In this document: positions 7,534-53,916 of the stretch, piece after piece | How positions within the stretch are numbered: position 1 is the stretch's first letter | Layout: every line of letters begins with the position of its first letter | Assembly (NCBI GenBank): GCA_028290665.1 | Contig: JAQGJK010000017.1 | Span: 1-64,000, forward strand | Source: Devosia sp. | Lineage (GTDB): Bacteria; Pseudomonadota; Alphaproteobacteria; Rhizobiales; Devosiaceae | Direction: 5' to 3' | Length of the DNA: 64,000 nucleotides | The notes under the pieces: generated by a model | Seen by the model: only the letters and a program-made list of their open reading frames with translations | Databases searched by the model: none | What the model was told of the DNA's origin: nothing | Translations under genes and position numbers: made by a program

Positions 7534-7581
7534 GCGTTTTCTTCACGCGAACCGATGGCCACTTCGCTTGAAAACGCTCTA
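7534..7581 (-). repeat. palindromic intergenic repeat at the iclR 3' end
   Basis: A 48-bp imperfect palindrome with outer arms gcgttttc and gaaaacgc and an inner part containing gcgaacc and ccacttcgc. A second copy is at 49716-49763 (about 90 percent identical by eye). Read on the minus strand, the element begins TAGAGCGTTTTC, and that TAG is the stop codon of the IclR gene. It could fold as a hairpin just after the stop. Confidence 0.8.
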
Positions 7582-8364
7582 GGCGAGCCAGTCGCCGGCG
7601 TAGCCGAGCTGGCGGCTAATGAGGCTGCACACTTCGTCGAGCTGGCGCTTCAGCGTCGCAACACTGCGGCCCGGCTGCTTTTTCGAGGGGCCGGTGACGC
7701 TGATTGCCCCCACCGCATTGCCGGCCCGATCGAGCATCGGTACGGCGACGCACCACACCCCAAGCACCACCTCCTGATCGTCGATCGAGTACCCCCGCTG
7801 CCGCGTGCGCTCCAACTCGGTGGCGAGCGCCTCGGGCGTCGTCAGCGTATGCTCCGTCAGCGCCGGCATCGGACCGGCGAGAATATCCGCCTGCAGCGCC
7901 TCCGGCGAAAACGCTAGGATGGCCTTGGCCGAGCCGCCGCAATGCAGCGGGCCGCGCGTGCCGACCCGCCAGTCGAGCTGCATCCCCGTGTCGCCGCGCA
8001 CCTTATCGACACACACGGCGTTGTGGCCGCTCAGCATGACGATGTTGACCGTCTCGCCGGTGGCCTCGGCGATACGTTCGCAGAACGGCCGGGCGAGTTT
8101 CGGGATTTCGATGTTGTCGAGCTGCAGCCCGCCGATTTCAAGCAACCGGTAGGACAGGCTCCAGTCACCCTCGTGCTGCTCGACCACGGCTTCGGCGGCG
8201 AGATCGGCGAGGATGCGCAGCGCCGAGGCCGCGGGCAGCCCGGCTTCCTTGGCAAGCGCCCGCACCCCGAGCGGCCCCTTGCGCGCAAGGATATCCATCA
8301 CCTGCACGGCGCGGCGAATACTCGAAGTCTTGCTGACAGGGTCGGGCAGGGTGCTCTCGGTCAT
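7579..8364 (-). CDS. IclR family transcriptional regulator
   Basis: A 261-residue regulator. An N-terminal winged helix-turn-helix (SIRRAVQVMDILARKG, then VRALAKEAGLPAASALRILADL) is followed by an IclR effector domain with LHCGGSAKAILAF, GYSIDDQE and a VAVPMLDRAGNAVGAISVTG strand. The start ATG overlaps the stop of the upstream enolase-superfamily gene by 4 bp (ATGA), which implies translational coupling. Two 16-bp palindromes in the divergent promoter region at 9563 and 9759 are its probable operators. I infer control of the adjacent transporter and sugar-acid enzymes by a sugar-acid effector. Confidence 0.92.
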   Translation of the reverse strand: MTESTLPDPVSKTSSIRRAVQVMDILARKGPLGVRALAKEAGLPAASALRILADLAAEAVVEQHEGDWSLSYRLLEIGGLQLDNIEIPKLARPFCERIAEATGETVNIVMLSGHNAVCVDKVRGDTGMQLDWRVGTRGPLHCGGSAKAILAFSPEALQADILAGPMPALTEHTLTTPEALATELERTRQRGYSIDDQEVVLGVWCVAVPMLDRAGNAVGAISVTGPSKKQPGRSVATLKRQLDEVCSLISRQLGYAGDWLA

Positions 8365-9524
8365 GGTATCCGGTTGTCGTCGATATAGTCCCAGATAATG
8401 TCGTACCCGAGCCCAGGCGTCTGCGGTACGGTCACGTAACCTTCGGCGTCGAGCTTGTCGCAGATCGCCCCGAGATAGGGATGCGGCGCGTCGAAATCGA
8501 CCCCGGGCGCCAACAGGCCCTTCTCGTAAAACTCCGAAGTGTCCTCGGAGGTCGCGCCCATCACCTGCAGATTGGCCCAGCCGCCGACGTGATACTCGCA
8601 GCGCACCCCGAATGCTTCGGCGACAACGGCGGTTTTCCGCGCTCCGGTAACGCCGCCGCGGATGGTGTCGATGCGGGTCATGTCCCCGGCGCCGCGCAAA
8701 ATCCACTCGGCCCGGGTGAACACCCCGCCGGCGGCGATCTCGGGGGAGAGGATCGGGATGGTCAGTTCGCGCGACAGCCGGACATAGCTCTCGACGCGAT
8801 ATTCGGGCATCGGGTGCTCGTACCAGTAATAATTCTGGCGCTCCAGTTCGCGGCCAACGAAGATCGCCTCCTCGAGCGACATGTAGGTGCCCCAGGGGTC
8901 ATACATCAGCACGTAATCCGGCCCCACCGCCTCGCGCACCAGCCGGATGGTTTCGATATCGGCCTTGATGTTGGACGGCCGGCCCGGAGTCGGCTGCCCC
9001 GTCTCGGGGTTCCAGAAATAGTGCGGATGAATCTTGTAGGCGCGGTAGCCCTCGGCGATGCACTGCAGCGCGTGGTCGGCGTAAACCTGCGGCTTGCCGA
9101 TATTGGGATAGGTCGAGGCATAGGCCTTCACCCGGTCGCGCGCCCCACCCATCAGCTTGTGCACCGGGGCGTTATGGGCGCGTCCCGCGAGGTCCCACAG
9201 GCAGTTGTCGATCACCGAGGCGACGTTTTCCTGGATGTTGGCGACCCACATCCATTTCCAGATCAATTCGCGATCGAACGGATCCTGGCCCAGCAGCAGC
9301 GCCCGGATGCGGCCATTGAGCATCTCGGCATCGCTGATCGTCAGCCCCTCGGTGTCGATGCCGTGGAAAGCTCCGCCGAGATAATGCCCGGTGATGCCCT
9401 CATCGGTTTCGATGGTGGTGATGGTCTGCCGGATTTCGGCCTTCGGCAGGGGCAGCGCGTGCCCGGTATCCCACCGGTCGGCACGGGTGCGAAAGGCTTT
9501 GACCGACACATCGGTGATCTTCAT
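8361..9524 (-). CDS. mandelate racemase / enolase superfamily enzyme (probable acid-sugar dehydratase)
   Basis: A 387-residue member of the mandelate-racemase subgroup, whose members abstract a proton alpha to a carboxylate and bind Mg2+. Predicted metal ligands are D209 (YDPWG), E236 (YEHPM) and E262 (LSPEI), and a catalytic dyad is D286 with H312 (CEYHVGG). The second-strand motif reads K164-I-H166 where classical racemases have KxK, so a dehydratase or a distinct specificity is more likely than racemisation. The ribosome site is AAAGGGGAGG. The gene precedes and overlaps the IclR gene. The substrate cannot be read from sequence. Confidence 0.85.
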   Translation of the reverse strand: MKITDVSVKAFRTRADRWDTGHALPLPKAEIRQTITTIETDEGITGHYLGGAFHGIDTEGLTISDAEMLNGRIRALLLGQDPFDRELIWKWMWVANIQENVASVIDNCLWDLAGRAHNAPVHKLMGGARDRVKAYASTYPNIGKPQVYADHALQCIAEGYRAYKIHPHYFWNPETGQPTPGRPSNIKADIETIRLVREAVGPDYVLMYDPWGTYMSLEEAIFVGRELERQNYYWYEHPMPEYRVESYVRLSRELTIPILSPEIAAGGVFTRAEWILRGAGDMTRIDTIRGGVTGARKTAVVAEAFGVRCEYHVGGWANLQVMGATSEDTSEFYEKGLLAPGVDFDAPHPYLGAICDKLDAEGYVTVPQTPGLGYDIIWDYIDDNRIP

Positions 9525-9562
9525 CGCAACCTCCCCTTTGTGACGAACTCAGCGCCGTCAAA

Positions 9563-9578
9563 GTTCCATTAATGGAAC
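9563..9578. promoter_or_regulatory. predicted IclR operator 1
   Basis: A perfect 16-bp palindrome, GTTCCATTAATGGAAC, 39 bp upstream of the leftward enolase-superfamily start. It shares both GTTCC/GGAAC arms with the second site at 9759. IclR-family proteins typically bind such short inverted repeats near their own operon. Assignment to the neighbouring IclR is inference. Confidence 0.75.
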
Positions 9579-9712
9579 GCATGTTTCACTTTAGGATGAA
9601 CTAGCGGTGTGGTTTCAGTCAAGTCAATCGCGACGAAATGCGGACTGCCCGGGGAACCGACAGTGTGCGACCAATCATCCTTAAGTGTGACGCCTGCTGC
9701 CGGAGCCGGCTA

Positions 9713-9741
9713 TTGACGTTCCAAGACCCCCGCAACATAAT
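9713..9741 (+). promoter_or_regulatory. sigma-70 promoter for the ABC transporter operon
   Basis: A -35 box TTGACG (9713-9718) and a -10 box CATAAT (9736-9741) are separated by exactly 17 bp, facing the transporter genes. The predicted start of transcription is near 9748. Operator 2 then covers about +12 to +27, a position suited to repression. Confidence 0.75.
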
Positions 9742-9758
9742 CCAAAACTGAAACAGCC

Positions 9759-9774
9759 GTTCCGAATATGGAAC
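9759..9774. promoter_or_regulatory. predicted IclR operator 2
   Basis: GTTCCGAATATGGAAC has the same arms as operator 1 around a different 6-bp centre. It lies directly downstream of the -10 box of the transporter promoter and upstream of the 9909 start, as expected for a repressor site. Confidence 0.75.
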
Positions 9775-9908
9775 ATTGAAGGCGAAAGTTCAGTTGCCCC
9801 GGATGGGCATCTGAACCGCCGTCAACAGGCTGCAGCCCTCCTACGCGGGGGCAAAGGACCAGGCTGGAGCGGCAATCCCGTCGCGGCTGGCCCAGTGGAG
9901 GAAAGACA

Positions 9909-11558
9909 ATGTCCATACCTTTGGGCCCGGTCACACGATCGGGACGCGGTCGATTCATGCGCTCGGCATTTGCCGCGGCGCTGCTGTCGCTGGCCGCAGT
10001 CGCACTGCCGGCAGCGGCGCAGGATAAGCCGCAGGGCGGCACCATGGTGTTCGCCCACGAGCAGGAGCCGGGCACGTTCAACGTGTATCACCCGAGCGGC
10101 CAGAGCGGCGCCGTGGCCGCAACTGGCGGGCTGATGCATTCGGGCACCTACAAATTCCCGCCGACAGGCGAGGCGGTTCCGTTCATCATCTCGAAGGAAG
10201 CCGAGGTCACCACTGACCCGTTCACAGTGACCTACACCATCCGCGACGACGCCAAGTGGAACGACGGCGTCGATATTACGGCCGAGGATTATGCGTTCAC
10301 CTATGAGACGCTGGTCAACCCGGAATGGACCATCGCCAACCGCAAGCCCTACGATCTGATCACCGGCTACGAGATCATCTCGCCCAAGGTGATCAAGTTC
10401 AGTTTCTCGGCCCCGGTGCCGACCTACAAACTGATGTTCTATGTGCTGCTGCCCAAGCATGACCTCGAAGGCAAGAACTGGGACACTGCCTGGCAGGACA
10501 CCGTGCCGGTATCCGCCGGCGCTTTCAAAATGGAAAGCTGGGAAAAAGGCCAGCAGATCACCTTCGTCAAGAACGAGTTCTATTTCGGTGGTGGCCCGAA
10601 CCTCGATCGCATCGTGATGCGCTTCGTGCCGGAAACCAACACGCTGCTGGAATTGCTGCGCTCGGGCGAAATCGACGCCTCCGATCCGCAGCCGCAGCCG
10701 GAGATCATCTCGACCGTCGCCAATATGGACGGCATCAAGGTGGACGCCCAGACCGGCCTGTTGAGCGAATTCCTGCGCTTCAACTTCAAGACCCCCGGCC
10801 TCGACAAGCTCTATGTCCGCCAGGCGATCCTGATGGGTATCGACCGCAATGCCATCGTCGAACAGCTGATGCATCCGGTCGATCCGACCGCCGTGCCGCC
10901 GCAGAGCTGGGTGTTCGGCCCCGCCAGCCCATATTTCGAGCCCAAGTACGAAAAGCTTGCCTATAACCCCGAAGCGGCCATCAAGCTGCTCGAGGACAAT
11001 GGCTGTACCCGTGGCGCCGATACGATCTTCGAGTGCCAGGGCGACCGGCTCGAATTCGGCTATGTCTCGACCGCCGGCAGCGAACGTCGCGAGCTGACCT
11101 TTGAGATCATCCAGGCCTACATGTCGCAAATCGGCATTCAGATGAACGCCGATTTCTCGCCGGCCGCCGTGCAGTTCGGGACGCGTGGTCCCGAGGGCGA
11201 TTACGACCTGTTCAATCAGGGCGGCCTCTATGAAGATCCGATCCCGCTCGGGCCCTATTATAAGTGCGAAGGCACGCTCAACGCCTCGGGCTATTGCAAC
11301 CCGGAACTGGACGCGCTGATGGACAAGATCACCGTCACCGCCGACCCGGTGGAGCGCGCCGCGCTGCTCAACGACATGGATACCATCCTCGCCACCGACC
11401 TGCCGCTGTTCCCGATCTTCGGGCTGCCGCGCATGGTGGTCTACAATTCAAACAAGATCGGTGGCATCAGCGTCAGCCAGTACACCGATAACGGTGTCGG
11501 CCCCGGCGGCTGGTACTGGAACTGGAATGCGAACGAGTTCTACCTCGTCTCGCCATAA
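9909..11558 (+). CDS. ABC transporter substrate-binding protein, family 5 (peptide/nickel type)
   Basis: A 549-residue periplasmic binding protein of the DppA/OppA family. The N-terminus has a signal peptide whose core is FAAALLSLAAVALPAAAQ, preceded by a basic stretch (SGRGRFMR). The mature part contains GGTMVFAHEQEPGTFNVY and FTVTYTIRDDAKWNDGVDITAEDYAFTYE-type motifs of SBP_bac_5. The start at 9909 follows GGAGGAAAG; an internal ATG at 9957 would also give a signal peptide. It is first in an operon with two permeases, two ATPases and a rhamnonate-dehydratase-like enzyme. Family-5 importers in this order also carry oligosaccharides, and the neighbours favour a sugar-acid ligand over peptides. 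Confidence 0.93.
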   Translation: MSIPLGPVTRSGRGRFMRSAFAAALLSLAAVALPAAAQDKPQGGTMVFAHEQEPGTFNVYHPSGQSGAVAATGGLMHSGTYKFPPTGEAVPFIISKEAEVTTDPFTVTYTIRDDAKWNDGVDITAEDYAFTYETLVNPEWTIANRKPYDLITGYEIISPKVIKFSFSAPVPTYKLMFYVLLPKHDLEGKNWDTAWQDTVPVSAGAFKMESWEKGQQITFVKNEFYFGGGPNLDRIVMRFVPETNTLLELLRSGEIDASDPQPQPEIISTVANMDGIKVDAQTGLLSEFLRFNFKTPGLDKLYVRQAILMGIDRNAIVEQLMHPVDPTAVPPQSWVFGPASPYFEPKYEKLAYNPEAAIKLLEDNGCTRGADTIFECQGDRLEFGYVSTAGSERRELTFEIIQAYMSQIGIQMNADFSPAAVQFGTRGPEGDYDLFNQGGLYEDPIPLGPYYKCEGTLNASGYCNPELDALMDKITVTADPVERAALLNDMDTILATDLPLFPIFGLPRMVVYNSNKIGGISVSQYTDNGVGPGGWYWNWNANEFYLVSP

Positions 11559-11650: not shown

Positions 11651-12622
11651 GTGCTTCGGCTGATCGTCAACCGCGTATTCTTCAGCCTGTTCGTGCTGCT
11701 CGCGGCGACGGCGGTGATTTTCTTCGGCGTTTCCGCCATTGGCGATCCGCTCGGCGAATTGCGCAATGATTCCAACATTAGCGCCGAGTCGCTGCAACGG
11801 CTGATCGACCGCAAGCACCTCGATGATCCGCTGGTCGTCCAGTATGGTTACTGGCTCAAAGACATGGCCACCGCTCAGTTCGGCACCGACATGAAATTCG
11901 ATCGGCCGATCTGGCCCGAACTCAGCCGGGCATTGCTCAACACCGTGCAACTGGTGGTGCTGGCCGAACTGTTCGCCATCGCCATGGCGATCGGCATCGG
12001 CGTGCTGGCAGGCCGCTTCCAGTATTCAATCTTCGATTACGGCACGACCATCGGCAGCTTCATCGGCTATTCGATTCCGATTTTCTGGTTTGCACTCATC
12101 CTGCAGATCGTCGCCGTCAATTTCTACCAGGTGACGGGCATCCGCGCGGTCTATATCTCGGGCCTGTCATCGGTCGACGTCCCGCAGGGCTGGGGCTTCT
12201 ATGTCGATCGGGCCCAGCACTTGATCCTGCCGATCATCGCGCTGTCGGTCACCTCAATCGCCACGTATTCGCGCTATCTGCGGGCGTCGATGCTCGAAGT
12301 CATCAACTCCGACTACGTCCGCACCGCCCGCGCCAAGGGCCTCAGCGAGCGCGTGGTGACGCTGCGGCATGCGCTGCGAAACGCCGCGCTGCCGCTAGCC
12401 ACCGTTGTGGGCGTCAATCTCGGCACGGTGTTCGGCGGCACCATCATCATCGAGACGATCTTCTCCATGCCCGGCATGGGGCTGTATTTCTTCAACGCCC
12501 TGACGACGCGCGACATTTATCCGCTGATGGCGTGGCTGATGGTGACGGCGACTATGGCGCTGACCCTCAATCTCATCACCGACATCGTCTACGGCTTGCT
12601 CGATCCGAGGTTGCGCGCATGA
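11651..12622 (+). CDS. ABC transporter permease, DppB type
   Basis: A 323-residue inner-membrane permease with a GTG start. It has a first transmembrane segment at the N-terminus ([18 protein letters not shown]), then a BPD_transp_1 domain from about residue 90. The coupling motif around [12 protein letters not shown] contacts the ATPases. The C-terminus [13 protein letters not shown] is typical of DppB. The stop overlaps the next permease start (ATGA). Confidence 0.93.
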
Positions 12623-13536
12623 CCATCGAACCGACGGCCGCGACACTGATCGCCGAACGCGAAGGGCTCAACGTCAAGCCGCGCTCGCAATGGCAATTGT
12701 TCATCAAGCGCTTCCTCCGCCACCGCGTCGCCATGGTGAGCCTCGTCATTCTCATTGCCATCGTGCTGGCGGCGCTGAACGCCGAGCGGCTGACGCCATA
12801 CCCATTCGACGGCATGAATTTGAAGGACTCCAACCTCGCGCCGACGGTCGAGGGCGGGCATTTCTTTGGCACCGACAAGCTTGGGCGGGATTATTTCACC
12901 CGCGTCGTCTACGGCACACGCACCACCATTTTCGTCGCCATCGTCGTGGCGCTGATTTCGACGCTGTTCGGGACGCTTGTCGGTGCCGTCGCCGGTTATG
13001 CGGGCGGCTGGATCGACAATGCGTTAATGCGCTTCACCGACCTCGTCATCATCCTGCCGGGCCTCGCGCTGCTGATGATCATGATCGCCTTTCTCGGCGA
13101 AGGCTCGCCGCTGCAGGTGGCGCTGATCCTGTCGTCCCTGTTGTGGACGTTGATCGCACGTATCGTCAGGGCGCAATTCCTGTCGCTGCGGCGTCGGGAA
13201 TTCGTCGAGGCCGCCATCCTTGCCGGCGCCTCGCCGTGGCGGGTAATCTGGCGGCACATGCTGCCCAACGCACTTGGGCCAATCATCGTCAACGCGACGC
13301 TGACCATCTCGACGGCAATCCTGATCGAGTCGGCGCTGTCGTTTATCGGCTTCGGGGTCAAGCCGCCGACCCCGGCCCTCGGACAGTTGATCAGCGCCGG
13401 ACGCGGCTCGATGTCGACGCAGTGGTGGCTGGTGACGTTCCCGGGGCTGATGATCATCACCATCTGCCTCACCATCAATTTCATCGGCGACGGGCTGCGC
13501 GATGCGCTCGACGCTCGCCAGGCGCAGCGGAGTTGA
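12619..13536 (+). CDS. ABC transporter permease, DppC type
   Basis: A 305-residue permease. The N-terminal OppC_N-like segment has one membrane span ([20 protein letters not shown]), followed by [21 protein letters not shown], a hallmark of DppC. The BPD_transp_1 domain has the EAA-type loop [17 protein letters not shown]. The ATG overlaps the stop of the upstream permease by 4 bp, indicating translational coupling and supporting this start. Confidence 0.94.
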
Positions 13537-13541
13537 CCCCG

Positions 13542-14564
13542 ATGGCACCACATCGCGGCGCGCCGCTGCTTTCGGTCGAAGGCCTCGTCACCGAATTCCG
13601 GTCGGCTGACGGCATCGTCCATGCGGTCGATGAAGTCTCCTACCAGCTGTGGCCGGGCGAAACGCTGGCAGTGGTCGGCGAGTCGGGCTCGGGCAAGAGC
13701 GTCACCGCCATGTCGATCCTCGGGCTCATTCCGCAGCCGCCGGGCCGGATTGCCGCCGGCCGGGTGCTGTTCGAAGGGCGGGATCTGCTGACGCTGTCGC
13801 GGCGCGAGATGCGGGCGGTACGCGGCAAATCCATCGCCATGATTTTCCAGGACCCGATGACCTCGCTCAATCCGGTGCTGACCGTCGGCTTCCAGATCGC
13901 CGAGGCGATGCTGGCGCATGGTGGAGTCGGGCGGCGGGAAGCGCATGAGCGGGCGATCGCCCTGCTGCAAACCACTGGCGTGCCCAATGCTTCCGAGCGC
14001 TACCACCAGTTCCCGCATCAGTATTCCGGCGGCATGCGGCAGCGGGCGCTGATCGCCATGGCGATTGCCAACCGGCCGCGCCTTGTGATTGCCGATGAGC
14101 CGACCACGGCACTCGACGTAACCATCCAGGCCCAGGTGTTCGAGGCGCTGAAGCTCGCGCAGGCCGAAACCGAAGCGGCGATGATTCTCATCACCCACGA
14201 TCTGGGACTCGTCGCCGAACTCGCCGACCGCGTCGTCGTCATGTATGGCGGAAGGGTGGTCGAGACGGCGGATGTGCGCACGTTGTTCCACGCGCCGCGC
14301 CATCCCTACACCGTCGGCCTGCTCAAGAGCCTGCCGCGCATTCACGGCCGCGCCGGCCGGCTGACGCCCATTCCCGGCGCACCGCCGAGCCTGATCCGCC
14401 TGCCATCGGGCTGCGCGTTTCACCCGCGCTGTTTCCAGTCGCAGGGACGCGAGCCCTGCCGGATGACCCGGCCCGGGCTGCGCGAGATCGAGGTGCAGCA
14501 CAATTCGGCTTGCCATTTCGCCGAGGAACTCGCGGTCTCAAACCGGGAAGGCGCACCTGCATGA
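13542..14564 (+). CDS. ABC transporter ATP-binding protein, DppD type
   Basis: A 340-residue ATPase. Walker A is GESGSGKSV at about residues 45-53, the signature is YSGGMRQR and Walker B is LVIADEPT. The C-terminal oligopeptide/dipeptide transporter extension carries a cysteine-rich segment ([17 protein letters not shown]). A much longer open frame extends upstream through the permease gene, but the ATG at 13542 has a GGAG nine bases upstream and gives the family length. It overlaps the second ATPase by 4 bp. Confidence 0.94.
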
Positions 14565-15592
14565 CTGGGCCGCTTACAGCGCCCGCCGCCGCTGATGGCG
14601 CATTGCTGCGCGTCGAAGGTTTGGTCAAGCACTATGGCGGCGCCCGTCATGGCTTTGCGACGCCACCAGCGATCCAGGCCGTTGGCGGAGTCGATTTCAC
14701 TCTCAAGGCCGGCGAAACGCTGGGGCTGGTTGGCGAATCGGGCTGCGGCAAGTCGACCACCGGCCGCTGCATCATCGGCCTCGAGCGCCCAACTGCGGGC
14801 CGGGTGGTATTCGACGGGCAGGACGTGGCGACGGCCAGCCCACGGCAGCTCAAGGCAATCCGCCGCGACATGCAGTATGTGTTCCAGGACCCGTACTCGT
14901 CGCTCAACCCGTTGATGACGGTCTTTTCGACCTTGGCCGAACCGCTCTACCTCTCCGGCATGCGCCGCAATGACATACGCGACCGGGTCGCCGAGCTGAT
15001 GCGGCTCGTCGGGCTCGCTCCCGAGCATGGCAACCGGTTTCCGCATGAGTTTTCGGGCGGGCAGCGCCAGCGCATCGGCATCGCTCGTGCCCTCGCGCTC
15101 AACCCCAAGCTGCTGATTCTCGACGAACCGGTGTCGGCGCTCGACGTGTCGATCCAGGCGCAGGTGATCAACTTGCTCGAAGACCTGCAGGATCAGTTCG
15201 GGCTGGCCTATCTGTTCATCGCCCATGATTTGTCGGTCATCAGCCACATCTGCGATCGCGTCGCGGTGATGTATCTCGGGCGTATCGTCGAGGTCGGGAC
15301 GCGCGAGGAGATTTTCGAGCGGGCGCTGCACCCCTATACGCAGGCACTGCTTTCGGCGGTGCCGATCGACGACCCGGACCTGCGCGGGAAGACGCAGCGG
15401 ATCGTGCTGTCGGGCGACTTGCCGAGTCCCGCCCGTCCGCCATCCGGTTGCCGGTTTCATACGCGGTGCTGGAAAGCACAGGCAAACTGCAAGCAAACCC
15501 CACCTACGCTTGCAAGAATGCACAGCCAGAGCCAGCTTGTCGCCTGTCATTACCCCGAAGAGCGGCCGCTAGTCGCCACCATTCAAGCCTAA
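14561..15592 (+). CDS. ABC transporter ATP-binding protein, DppF type
   Basis: A 343-residue second ATPase. Walker A is GESGCGKST, the signature FSGGQRQR and Walker [13 protein letters not shown], followed by FIAHDLSVI with the switch histidine. It has the C-terminal oligopeptide-transporter extension ([15 protein letters not shown]). The start overlaps the stop of the first ATPase (ATGA). With that ATPase and two permeases it completes an importer. Confidence 0.94.
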
Positions 15593-15613: not shown

Positions 15614-16807
15614 ATGAAAATCAAAGAGATACGCGCCTTCGCCATCGAAAACCCGACCTCGGGCGGCACCTACAGCGTCCGCGAAGGCACCGAAGGCCTA
15701 CTCCGCCGCGACCCCTGGACCAAAGGCGCCGAAGTCGCCAATCCGATGTCCCGCTACCCCAAATACCGGGCGCTGCGGGCCAGCTGGATGGGCAATCTCC
15801 CCAACGTCGGCTGCATCGTCATCGCCGATGACGGCACCTGGGGCTTCGGCACCACCACCCAGGGCGGCGCGTCGATTTCCCTGATAAATGATGCACTTGG
15901 CCCCCGCCTGGTCGGCGAAAACCCGCTGGCGACCGACAAATGCTGGGACATGATGATGCGCATGGCCTCGCCTTATTCGTCCTCGGGCGTCGGCTCTTAC
16001 GCCATCAGCGCCATCGATCTGGCGCTATGGGACCTCAAGGGCAAAGTGCTGAACACCCCGGTCTACGAGCTCGCCGGCGGCCCGGTGCGCGACAAGCAAT
16101 ATTGCTACGCCACCGGCAACGACACCGACTGGCACATGGAACTGGGCTTCACCGCCACCAAACTGGCGTGCCCGTATGGTGTGGCGGATGGGCTAGAAGC
16201 CATTGATAAAAATGAGGAATTCGTTGCAAAGAACCGCGAGCTGATCGGCCCGAAAGTCGAACTCATGCTCGATTGCTGGATGGCGTTCGACGTCGAATTC
16301 GCCGTGCGGATGGCCGAGCGGCTGCGTCCCTACAACATGAAGTGGATCGAGGATTGCCTCGTTCCCGAGAACATGGGCGCCCACCGCGCCCTGCGCCAGC
16401 GCCTGCCGTGGCAGACGCTGACCACCGGCGAACATTGGTATACGCCATATACGTTTTTTGAAGCGGCGGCTGATCGGGTGGTCGATATTTTCCAGCCTGA
16501 CATCCACTGGGTCGGCGGTTTCACCGCCTGCCAGCGCATTTCCCACATCGCCGAGGCGGCGGGGATCGAAGTGATGCTGCACGCCGGAATGAACACGCCG
16601 TATGGCCAGCATTTCGTCTATTCGAGCCCCAATTCCACCTGGGGCGAGTATTTCGTCGGCGGCGGACCGGGCGTGCCACTGGCACAAACCACCGGATTTC
16701 CTGGCATGACGACGCCGGTTGACGGTTATTGCGTACCGAGCGATGCGCCCGGCTTCGGGCATGGCTTCACCCTCGACGACATCGAGGCAATGGCTATCAA
16801 GGCCTAA
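15614..16807 (+). CDS. L-rhamnonate dehydratase-like enolase superfamily enzyme
   Basis: A 397-residue protein closely resembling bacterial L-rhamnonate dehydratases in remembered motifs: ATPMSKY-like ANPMSRYPKYR, YATGNDTDWHMELGF, LMLDCWM, KWIEDCL and TGEHWYTPY. Predicted Mg2+ ligands are D220, E246 and E273. The acid-base dyad is D296 (QPDIHWVGG) with H323 (MLHAGMN). It dehydrates a sugar acid to a 2-keto-3-deoxy acid; L-rhamnonate is possible but related acids cannot be excluded. It is the last gene of the transporter operon, 21 bp after the second ATPase, with GAGGAG as ribosome site. Its stop overlaps that of the convergent pseudouridine synthase. Confidence 0.85.
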   Translation: MKIKEIRAFAIENPTSGGTYSVREGTEGLLRRDPWTKGAEVANPMSRYPKYRALRASWMGNLPNVGCIVIADDGTWGFGTTTQGGASISLINDALGPRLVGENPLATDKCWDMMMRMASPYSSSGVGSYAISAIDLALWDLKGKVLNTPVYELAGGPVRDKQYCYATGNDTDWHMELGFTATKLACPYGVADGLEAIDKNEEFVAKNRELIGPKVELMLDCWMAFDVEFAVRMAERLRPYNMKWIEDCLVPENMGAHRALRQRLPWQTLTTGEHWYTPYTFFEAAADRVVDIFQPDIHWVGGFTACQRISHIAEAAGIEVMLHAGMNTPYGQHFVYSSPNSTWGEYFVGGGPGVPLAQTTGFPGMTTPVDGYCVPSDAPGFGHGFTLDDIEAMAIKA

Positions 16808-51809: not shown

Positions 51810-51885
<76 letters not shown>

Positions 51886-52179: not shown

Positions 52180-53103
52180 TTAGCTGATATAAATGTCAAG
52201 GTTCGTCAGCGTCGGAATATCGCCGGAAAAATTATCGAGCGCCACGATTGCCTGGCGTACAATACTTCCGCTGCCATCAGGATCATAATAGAGGACGCCA
52301 TTGTTGAAATTGTAAATAATACGATCAGTGCCATCTACCGAGTCACCTGTCCCCAATACCTTGAAGGCCGAGGACGAGAGCGTGCCAGTCGCCAGGCCCA
52401 GCGCGGTGAAGATGGCGTTGTCAAGCTTGATAGTGTCGTCGACTCCACGGAAGTCACCGATGTGGTCGAAGTTTCCGGGAAGAGCGGTATCGAACGCAAA
52501 ATAATCCAACCCGTCATCACCGTACAGATAGTCGTTGCCAAGGCCGCCATTGAGGGTGTCGTTGCCGGCGCCGCCTCGAACTTCATCGGCACCTTTAAAA
52601 CCGTTCAACTGATCATTGAAATCCGATCCGAATAGATCGTCCGCATATGTACTCCCAATAATCTTTACGCCGGACGTTGTCATTGCGGCATCGACGACCA
52701 GATGGTTTGGTTCAAAGTATTTGTTAGAAAAATCGAGAGTACCGCCCGCGCCCTGCAGGAAAAAATGAAATTCTTCACTATTATTATTTATACTAAATTT
52801 CGAAAATCCGCTCAACTGCGTTACAGTCGTAAAAAGATTTTGCGCATCCATGACAAGCTCCTCAATATTACTGATAGACAGTAAACTGTGGAACTCATTA
52901 TTAAATCCAGGTCCGGTCAGGTGAAGCCGGTCATAATTCGCGCCGCCGTCGATGCTGCCGTATTGCCCGACCTGAATATCGAAGGTGTCATTTCCGGCCC
53001 CGCCCTTGAGGGTATCGCTCTCCCCGGCAGCGCCCGAAAAAAAATCGGCGCCGCTGAGGCCGGTCAAGGTATTCGCCGTATTTGTCAGAGTGTAATAAGA
53101 CAT
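52180..53103 (-). CDS. RTX-type calcium-binding protein
   Basis: A 307-residue acidic, Gly/Asp/Asn-rich protein. Nonapeptide Ca2+-binding repeats of GGxGxDxxx type are seen near residue 35 (LKGGAGNDTFD) and residues 165-200 (GADEVRGGAGNDTLNGGLGNDYLYGDDGLD). The C-terminal part resembles a type I secretion signal module (GVLYYDPDGSG). It has no N-terminal signal peptide and no catalytic domain. AAGGAG precedes the ATG. Composition is lower in GC than the flanks. No type I exporter genes are in the window. Confidence 0.85.
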   Translation of the reverse strand: MSYYTLTNTANTLTGLSGADFFSGAAGESDTLKGGAGNDTFDIQVGQYGSIDGGANYDRLHLTGPGFNNEFHSLLSISNIEELVMDAQNLFTTVTQLSGFSKFSINNNSEEFHFFLQGAGGTLDFSNKYFEPNHLVVDAAMTTSGVKIIGSTYADDLFGSDFNDQLNGFKGADEVRGGAGNDTLNGGLGNDYLYGDDGLDYFAFDTALPGNFDHIGDFRGVDDTIKLDNAIFTALGLATGTLSSSAFKVLGTGDSVDGTDRIIYNFNNGVLYYDPDGSGSIVRQAIVALDNFSGDIPTLTNLDIYIS

Positions 53104-53339
53104 GGCTCAGCTCCTTTATTTTGTTGTCAGAATTGACATGGGCCGAACCTAGCACCGGCTGCTGCCAGTGCAAGTGACTTCGGAATTGCAGCGTGAGCCG
53201 CCGGACGTCAAATGCCGTCCGCCGCAAGACCGGTTCAAAGCTCTGCAAGTCTGTCGAGGCGCCTCACGCTAAATGCCTGCGACCATTTGGATCCACAGTT
53301 CATGGGGTCAGTTTGCCAAAGGGTCACGCGATCGATGCC

Positions 53340-53747
53340 AATGGCGGTGTCTCAGGGAACGGTGTGTTCAGTTTTATCGCCGGCGAAGGTGTTTTGTTTG
53401 TCAGCGGGGTCCGTGGCCAACTGCGCTGGGACCAGGTCGATGCCGCAGGGACGGTAAACGATCACACCTATATTTACGGCGACATCGACGGGGAAGGCAC
53501 GGCCGACTTTGCCCTTGATCTGTTGGGGCTGAAGACCCTCACCGCGACGGATTTCGTGCTGCCGGACGGACTGGACCAAGACACCTGCGCTCCCGGTACT
53601 CGTCGCGTTGGCATGCCTCCGACACTTCGCTTGTCGATGTGGATTGAGGCTGGAATGGCCCGAAAGTCGATCCAAAGCTTCGCGGGGCATTCGAACTTGT
53701 CGGTCACGATCGACCGAAAGGGTCACTTGTTCCAACGGCGATCATCG
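53340..53747 (+). pseudogene. chimeric remnant: RTX C-terminal module joined to tyrosine recombinase tail
   Basis: One open frame (53193-53858) joins two unrelated remnants. About 53340-53561 encodes an RTX/serralysin-like C-terminal module (GQLRWDQVDAAGTVNDHTYI, then YGDIDGEGTADFALDLLG). About 53631-53747 encodes the end of a phage-type integrase (IEAGMARKSIQSFAGHSNLS, then VTIDRKGHLFQRR). In active integrases the last motif reads DxYGHLF; here the catalytic Tyr is Lys, so it cannot be active. The parts were probably fused by deletions. Confidence 0.75.
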
Positions 53748-53867
53748 ATCGGCCATGGACAAGATTGCCAACGACCTTTTTGCGTGAGAACTCTAGGAAC
53801 TGTCTGTCGGACATGGCGCACAAATCGCGCACGCCCGAAGGAAGACCGCTGTTATTAAGGGTGCTTT

Positions 53868-53916
53868 ACCTGTTTGTGATCAGGGGGGCGGGGTCGTGTC
53901 CCTCTGCCGGCACCAT
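53868..53916 (+). pseudogene. tRNA-Thr 3'-half remnant (attR)
   Basis: Aligns with the second half of tRNA-Thr from acctg(a)tttgt through the encoded CCA, with a few substitutions and gaps in the anticodon and T arms. The last 19 bases are identical to the intact tRNA. It lacks the 5' half and cannot be functional. Confidence 0.85.

Follow-up and report, generated by a model that had tools for sequence, protein, structure and literature searches.

The IclR-family regulator and the genes it is predicted to control are arranged in two divergent units in the window (the whole 64-kb stretch of DNA that was analysed). On the minus strand, the regulator (7579–8364) lies next to MR1 (8361–9524), a mandelate-racemase/enolase-superfamily enzyme. 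The plus-strand operon consists of six genes, which encode an ABC transporter of the Opp/Dpp type and MR2, the second dehydratase of the locus. These are a substrate-binding protein (SBP) of the SBP_bac_5 type (9909–11558), permeases of the Opp/Dpp B type (11651–12622) and C type (12607–13536), ATPases of the D type (13542–14564) and F type (14510–15592), both without an exactly fixed start, and MR2 itself (15614–16807), an enolase-superfamily sugar-acid dehydratase. The regulator scores above the cut-offs of PF09339 (35.9 bits, cut-off 22) and PF01614 (129.5 bits, cut-off 24). It falls short of the NCBIfam cut-offs for the named IclR equivalogs BhcR, PcaR/PcaU, IclR, KdgR and AllR, with BhcR the best at 165.6 against 350 bits. 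The nearest solved relatives of MR1 are the Agrobacterium isomerase/lactonizing enzyme structures 1rvk and 4hcd, and those of MR2 are the L-rhamnonate dehydratases 2p0i and 3fxg. As MR2 is below the L-rhamnonate dehydratase equivalog cut-off (NCBIfam PRK15440, 263.6 vs 393 bits) and MR1 matches no equivalog, substrates are not assigned to either enzyme. Elsewhere in the window, the 3′ end of a tRNA-Thr gene (51810–51885) is partly repeated 2030 bp downstream (53883–53916, with 19 bp exact at the end). Between the gene and the repeat are located a minus-strand ORF (52180–53103) with haemolysin-type repeat-like sequence and an ORF (53193–53858) with a stretch resembling a tyrosine recombinase C-terminus; the segment 51810–53916 resembles what is left of an integrated element.

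The two halves of the locus, MR1/iclR on the minus strand and the ABC transporter/MR2 operon on the plus strand, are separated by a gap of 384 bp (9525–9908). The sequence-only reading had placed two matching 16-bp palindromes in this gap and called them an IclR operator pair. Both palindromes are there, with identical 5-bp arms and 6-bp spacers: GTTCCATTAATGGAAC at 9563–9578 (the strong dyad of operator O1, a perfect 16-bp palindrome) and GTTCCGAATATGGAAC at 9759–9774 (the strong dyad of O2); no strand is assigned to either, and both are kept in orthologous loci. They are the only exact matches to GTTCC-N6-GGAAC in the window and two of the three in the 2.24-Mb assembly (61% complete), the third being on another contig within open frames. 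In 20,000 simulated gaps with the same dinucleotide make-up, two exact matches never occur and a single one occurs in about 0.1%; any 5-N(0–10)-5 dyad is repeated with the same arms and spacer in about 0.1%. The dyad pair does not share a single gap by chance. When one or two mismatches are allowed, the pattern is not enriched in the window (27 vs 28.5 in shuffles).

The IclR protein was searched against 136 genomes from the bacterial family to which the window belongs and 397 from its order. The relatives came from these whole-genome searches; a scan of contigs with the IclR protein confirmed none. Including the window's own, 30 IclR loci at 55–61% identity are found in 22 genomes, and these form 15 IclR groups at 80% identity, 14 of which have an assembled operon head. 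The recognition helix of the window IclR (HTH, 8200–8320) reads PAASALRIL and that of all 29 relatives P(L/V)GS(V/I or T)HR(L/M)L, a difference that speaks against a shared operator, although the arms of the operator are the same. The proposed operators withstood the conservation test, as the dyad is located at the operon head in 26/26 orthologous loci where this head is assembled, with at most one arm mismatch (14 IclR groups, two families of one order). In the four loci that lack the dyad (L036, L045, L051 and L052), the contig ends before the operon head, and in the genome of L036 another contig (L103) carries the site together with the missing transporter genes. The arm positions of the strong dyad are identical in 24–31 of 31 sites, while the bases outside the tandem dyads are mixed; nearly invariant arms amid varying surroundings mean that the match is not merely inherited similar DNA. 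A count of dyads with 6-mer arms within 8 kb of the IclR gene ranks GTTCCA-N4-TGGAAC first, in 8 of 15 groups. The motif-blind count with 5-mer arms over the same range does not single out GTTCC-N6-GGAAC, G+C-rich arms being equal, as its signal is lost among 16 kb of G+C-rich coding DNA. The motif is absent from ten distant-IclR loci, a weak control that covers 1.5 kb per side. Taken from sequence comparison, the assignment of the palindromes as conserved binding sites of the neighbouring IclR is strongly supported.

Each operator had been regarded as a single palindrome. The palindromes are real, but each is the strong half of a tandem dyad pair. When the 31 sites were aligned in the orientation of the gene that they regulate, a weaker upstream dyad emerged. 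It scores a mean of 7.8/10, and the mirrored flank downstream scores 5.0 (Wilcoxon p 2e-5; this value, like the locus counts, comes from related loci, so the samples are not independent). At O1, the weak dyad GTTTCACTTTAGGATG (9583–9598; CATCCTAAAGTGAAAC when read on the minus strand, 9598–9583) is located on the side away from MR1. At O2, the weak dyad AATCCAAAACTGAAAC (9739–9754) overlaps the predicted −10 box. Both, again without an assigned strand, flank their strong partner distally from the regulated gene, at exactly 20 bp centre to centre, about two helical turns. Taken one by one, the window's own weak dyads, which score 7/10, are marginal (p 0.08 and 0.04). The arms of the proposed consensus GTTCC-N6-GGAAC hold, but the site is better described as GTTCCA-N4-TGGAAC plus the upstream dyad. 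Tandem sites 18–22 nt apart are described for 94 IclR orthologous groups and attributed to tetramer binding (PMC8222616). The dyad centres of both window operators, 20 bp apart, fall in this range, and the geometry suits a dimer of dimers. A simpler arrangement, in which single strong dyads are used, or three-box sites as for PcaU/PobR/HmgR, and the fourth arm is incidental, seems unlikely to us. The inner box (GAAAC/GGAAC) is indeed better preserved than the outer box in the 31 sites, with column −9 a G in 30/31, and 32 IclR groups have three-box sites according to PMC8222616. The outer arm is, however, also preserved (column −17 is C in 27/31 sites, and GTT occupies −20 to −18 in about two thirds), and in one related locus (L050) a spacing of 21 bp separates two near-perfect dyads.

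A TTGACG-N17-CATAAT promoter had been proposed ahead of the second dyad. The string is present at 9713–9741 on the plus strand and precedes the SBP gene; it predicts a start at about 9748, and the 9759–9774 dyad begins at about +12. As a match, however, it is at chance level (1 found, 1.1 expected). With its weak dyad included, O2 extends from the predicted −10 box as far as about +26, which suits repression. The centre of the O1 strong dyad is about 46 bp ahead of the MR1 start codon.

The sites, their conservation and tandem spacing in the relatives, and the genes present were observed directly; from these we infer with a probability of roughly 0.88 that IclR binds the tandem-dyad operators O1 (9563–9598) and O2 (9739–9774) as tetramers and represses both operons. 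One IclR dimer would occupy each dyad, and a pair of dimers, spaced by 20 bp along one face of the DNA, would form the usual IclR tetramer at each divergent promoter. Bound to O2, the protein would lie over the −10 box and the start; through O1, it would govern MR1 together with iclR itself. A sugar acid or a related intermediate would be predicted to lift repression. The same sites could instead be bound by this IclR as an activator or a dual activator/repressor, which we regard as improbable. The family includes activators and dual regulators (PMC8222616). The SBP start codon lies 142 bp downstream of O2, and the promoter match is at chance level, so the true start could be elsewhere. Repression is favoured by the position of the dyads in relatives, frequently 20–50 bp ahead of the start codon, where a repressor blocks transcription, and by the nearest functional precedent, Campylobacter jejuni FucR, which is a repressor (PMC12566272). 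DNA looping between O1 and O2, with 196 bp between the centres, was also considered.

In the 20 family genomes with an IclR ortholog, GTTCCAN4TGGAAC has 15 matches and its reversed control 1; in the remaining 116, the numbers are 23 and 32. Among the 136 family genomes, the motif is enriched solely in those with this IclR. That the dyads belong to a different regulator, with IclR a bystander, is very improbable: a GntR-type gene adjoins two related loci (L059 and L061), but IclR is present at every site-bearing locus, apart from unlinked targets whose genomes encode it at another place, the motif has the shape of IclR group 1, and the enrichment follows this IclR. The motif had also been offered as a means of finding the whole regulon. 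In relatives it does reach unlinked targets. In one genome (G098), the only IclR of this kind adjoins MR1, and the operator is also located before an unlinked mutarotase–MR2–aldo/keto reductase operon. This corresponds to the window, split over separate loci; in the window, one IclR sits between both dehydratase operons. In the window's own incomplete assembly, there is no further convincing site, and the whole regulon is the window locus alone. With three mismatches, the pattern is rarer in this assembly than the reversed control (40+48 vs 73+64). Near-matches at C8:231951 and C22:12578 were set aside as operators; both are inside open frames with no known link to a regulator. In the same genome, a two-mismatch relative of the operator (C12:24231–24255) is located about 90 bp before another IclR gene (C12:24342–25070); this paralog is 29% identical, and the dyad is possibly its own operator. 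In another genome (G103), contig C87 carries an exact operator-type dyad (1004–1019) before a sugar ABC ATPase-like gene (45% identical). This contig is without this IclR, and the dyad possibly marks a further unlinked regulon member. The connection of unlinked operons in relatives can help to place transporters and dehydratases of unknown substrate in one pathway.

Two types of locus are seen in the relatives, one with MR1 and a CUT2-like sugar ABC importer and one with MR2 and an SBP_bac_5 importer. Several genomes contain MR1-type and MR2-type loci, each with its own IclR. A rhaM-type mutarotase gene is located beside IclR, or before MR2, in all 29 related loci (6237–6542 in L096, the G098 locus). 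Most related loci also have genes for an aldo/keto reductase, an Amidohydro_2 lactonase-like protein, a DHDPS-type aldolase and/or a short-chain dehydrogenase. The series mutarotase, dehydrogenase, lactonase and dehydratase is that of the non-phosphorylative L-fucose and L-rhamnose routes. The genes of the relatives thus point to non-phosphorylative oxidation of an L-fucose/L-rhamnose-like sugar, and the predicted substrate is most likely the acid of such a sugar. None of the relatives' genes for mutarotase, reductase, lactonase and aldolase is present at the window locus, which makes the pathway reading less sure here. Orthologs of the mutarotase, the DHDPS-type aldolase and the lactonase are not found in the window's genome, although, as this genome is 39% incomplete, their absence is not thereby shown, and its aldo/keto reductases are merely 39–41% identical. 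We suggest tentatively, at a little under even odds, that the regulators form an IclR clade not yet described, whose tandem-dyad operator is of a 16-bp GTT-10-AAC type. It would contain paralogous MR1-type and MR2-type regulators that keep nearly the same operator in genomes with both, so that their operons may be cross-regulated, and the window would be a merged, slimmed-down version in which one IclR serves both dehydratases.

The operator system of the window is ordinary bacterial gene regulation of the known IclR kind. It leaves the general understanding of IclR regulation unchanged. For an IclR clade predicted to control sugar-acid dehydratases and importers in one bacterial order, it supplies an operator consensus that is well supported, together with a tandem geometry. 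The literature search for a known IclR regulator of this operon type yielded two papers, PMC8222616 and PMC12566272. The nearest functional precedent is C. jejuni FucR (Cj0480c), an IclR-type repressor of the non-phosphorylative L-fucose operon for which direct promoter binding was shown (PMC12566272). The two systems are alike in having an IclR-type regulator beside an oxidative deoxysugar operon. FucR differs in belonging to another phylum and in its dehydratase type; for FucR, no palindrome was reported, and L-fucose failed to release the protein from DNA (PMC12566272). The three-box operators of PcaU/PobR/HmgR also have alternating boxes beside a central dyad, but these regulators control aromatic-compound pathways (PMC8222616), and the window-type operator has a fourth arm that is conserved in relatives. 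Closest in form are the IclR group-1 operators (Suvorova & Gelfand 2021, PMC8222616), whose palindrome arms of the GKTYC...GRAMC type upstream of regulated genes are found here. The core has 10 bases in 31/31 sites, which were gathered with this spacing fixed, and lies outside the four main published group-1 subgroups with their 11- or 12-base core. Motifs of 16 bp occur in the IclR family for HutR and NpdR (PMC8222616). As compared to the GTT-11-AAC subgroup, with the consensus GTTYCRYW3RYGRAAC, the operator here has GTTCC arms and, at 16 bp (GTT-10-AAC), is one base shorter. It shares with that subgroup (PMC8222616) the GTT...AAC arms, sugar or sugar-acid targets, small local regulons and tandems at 18–22 nt.
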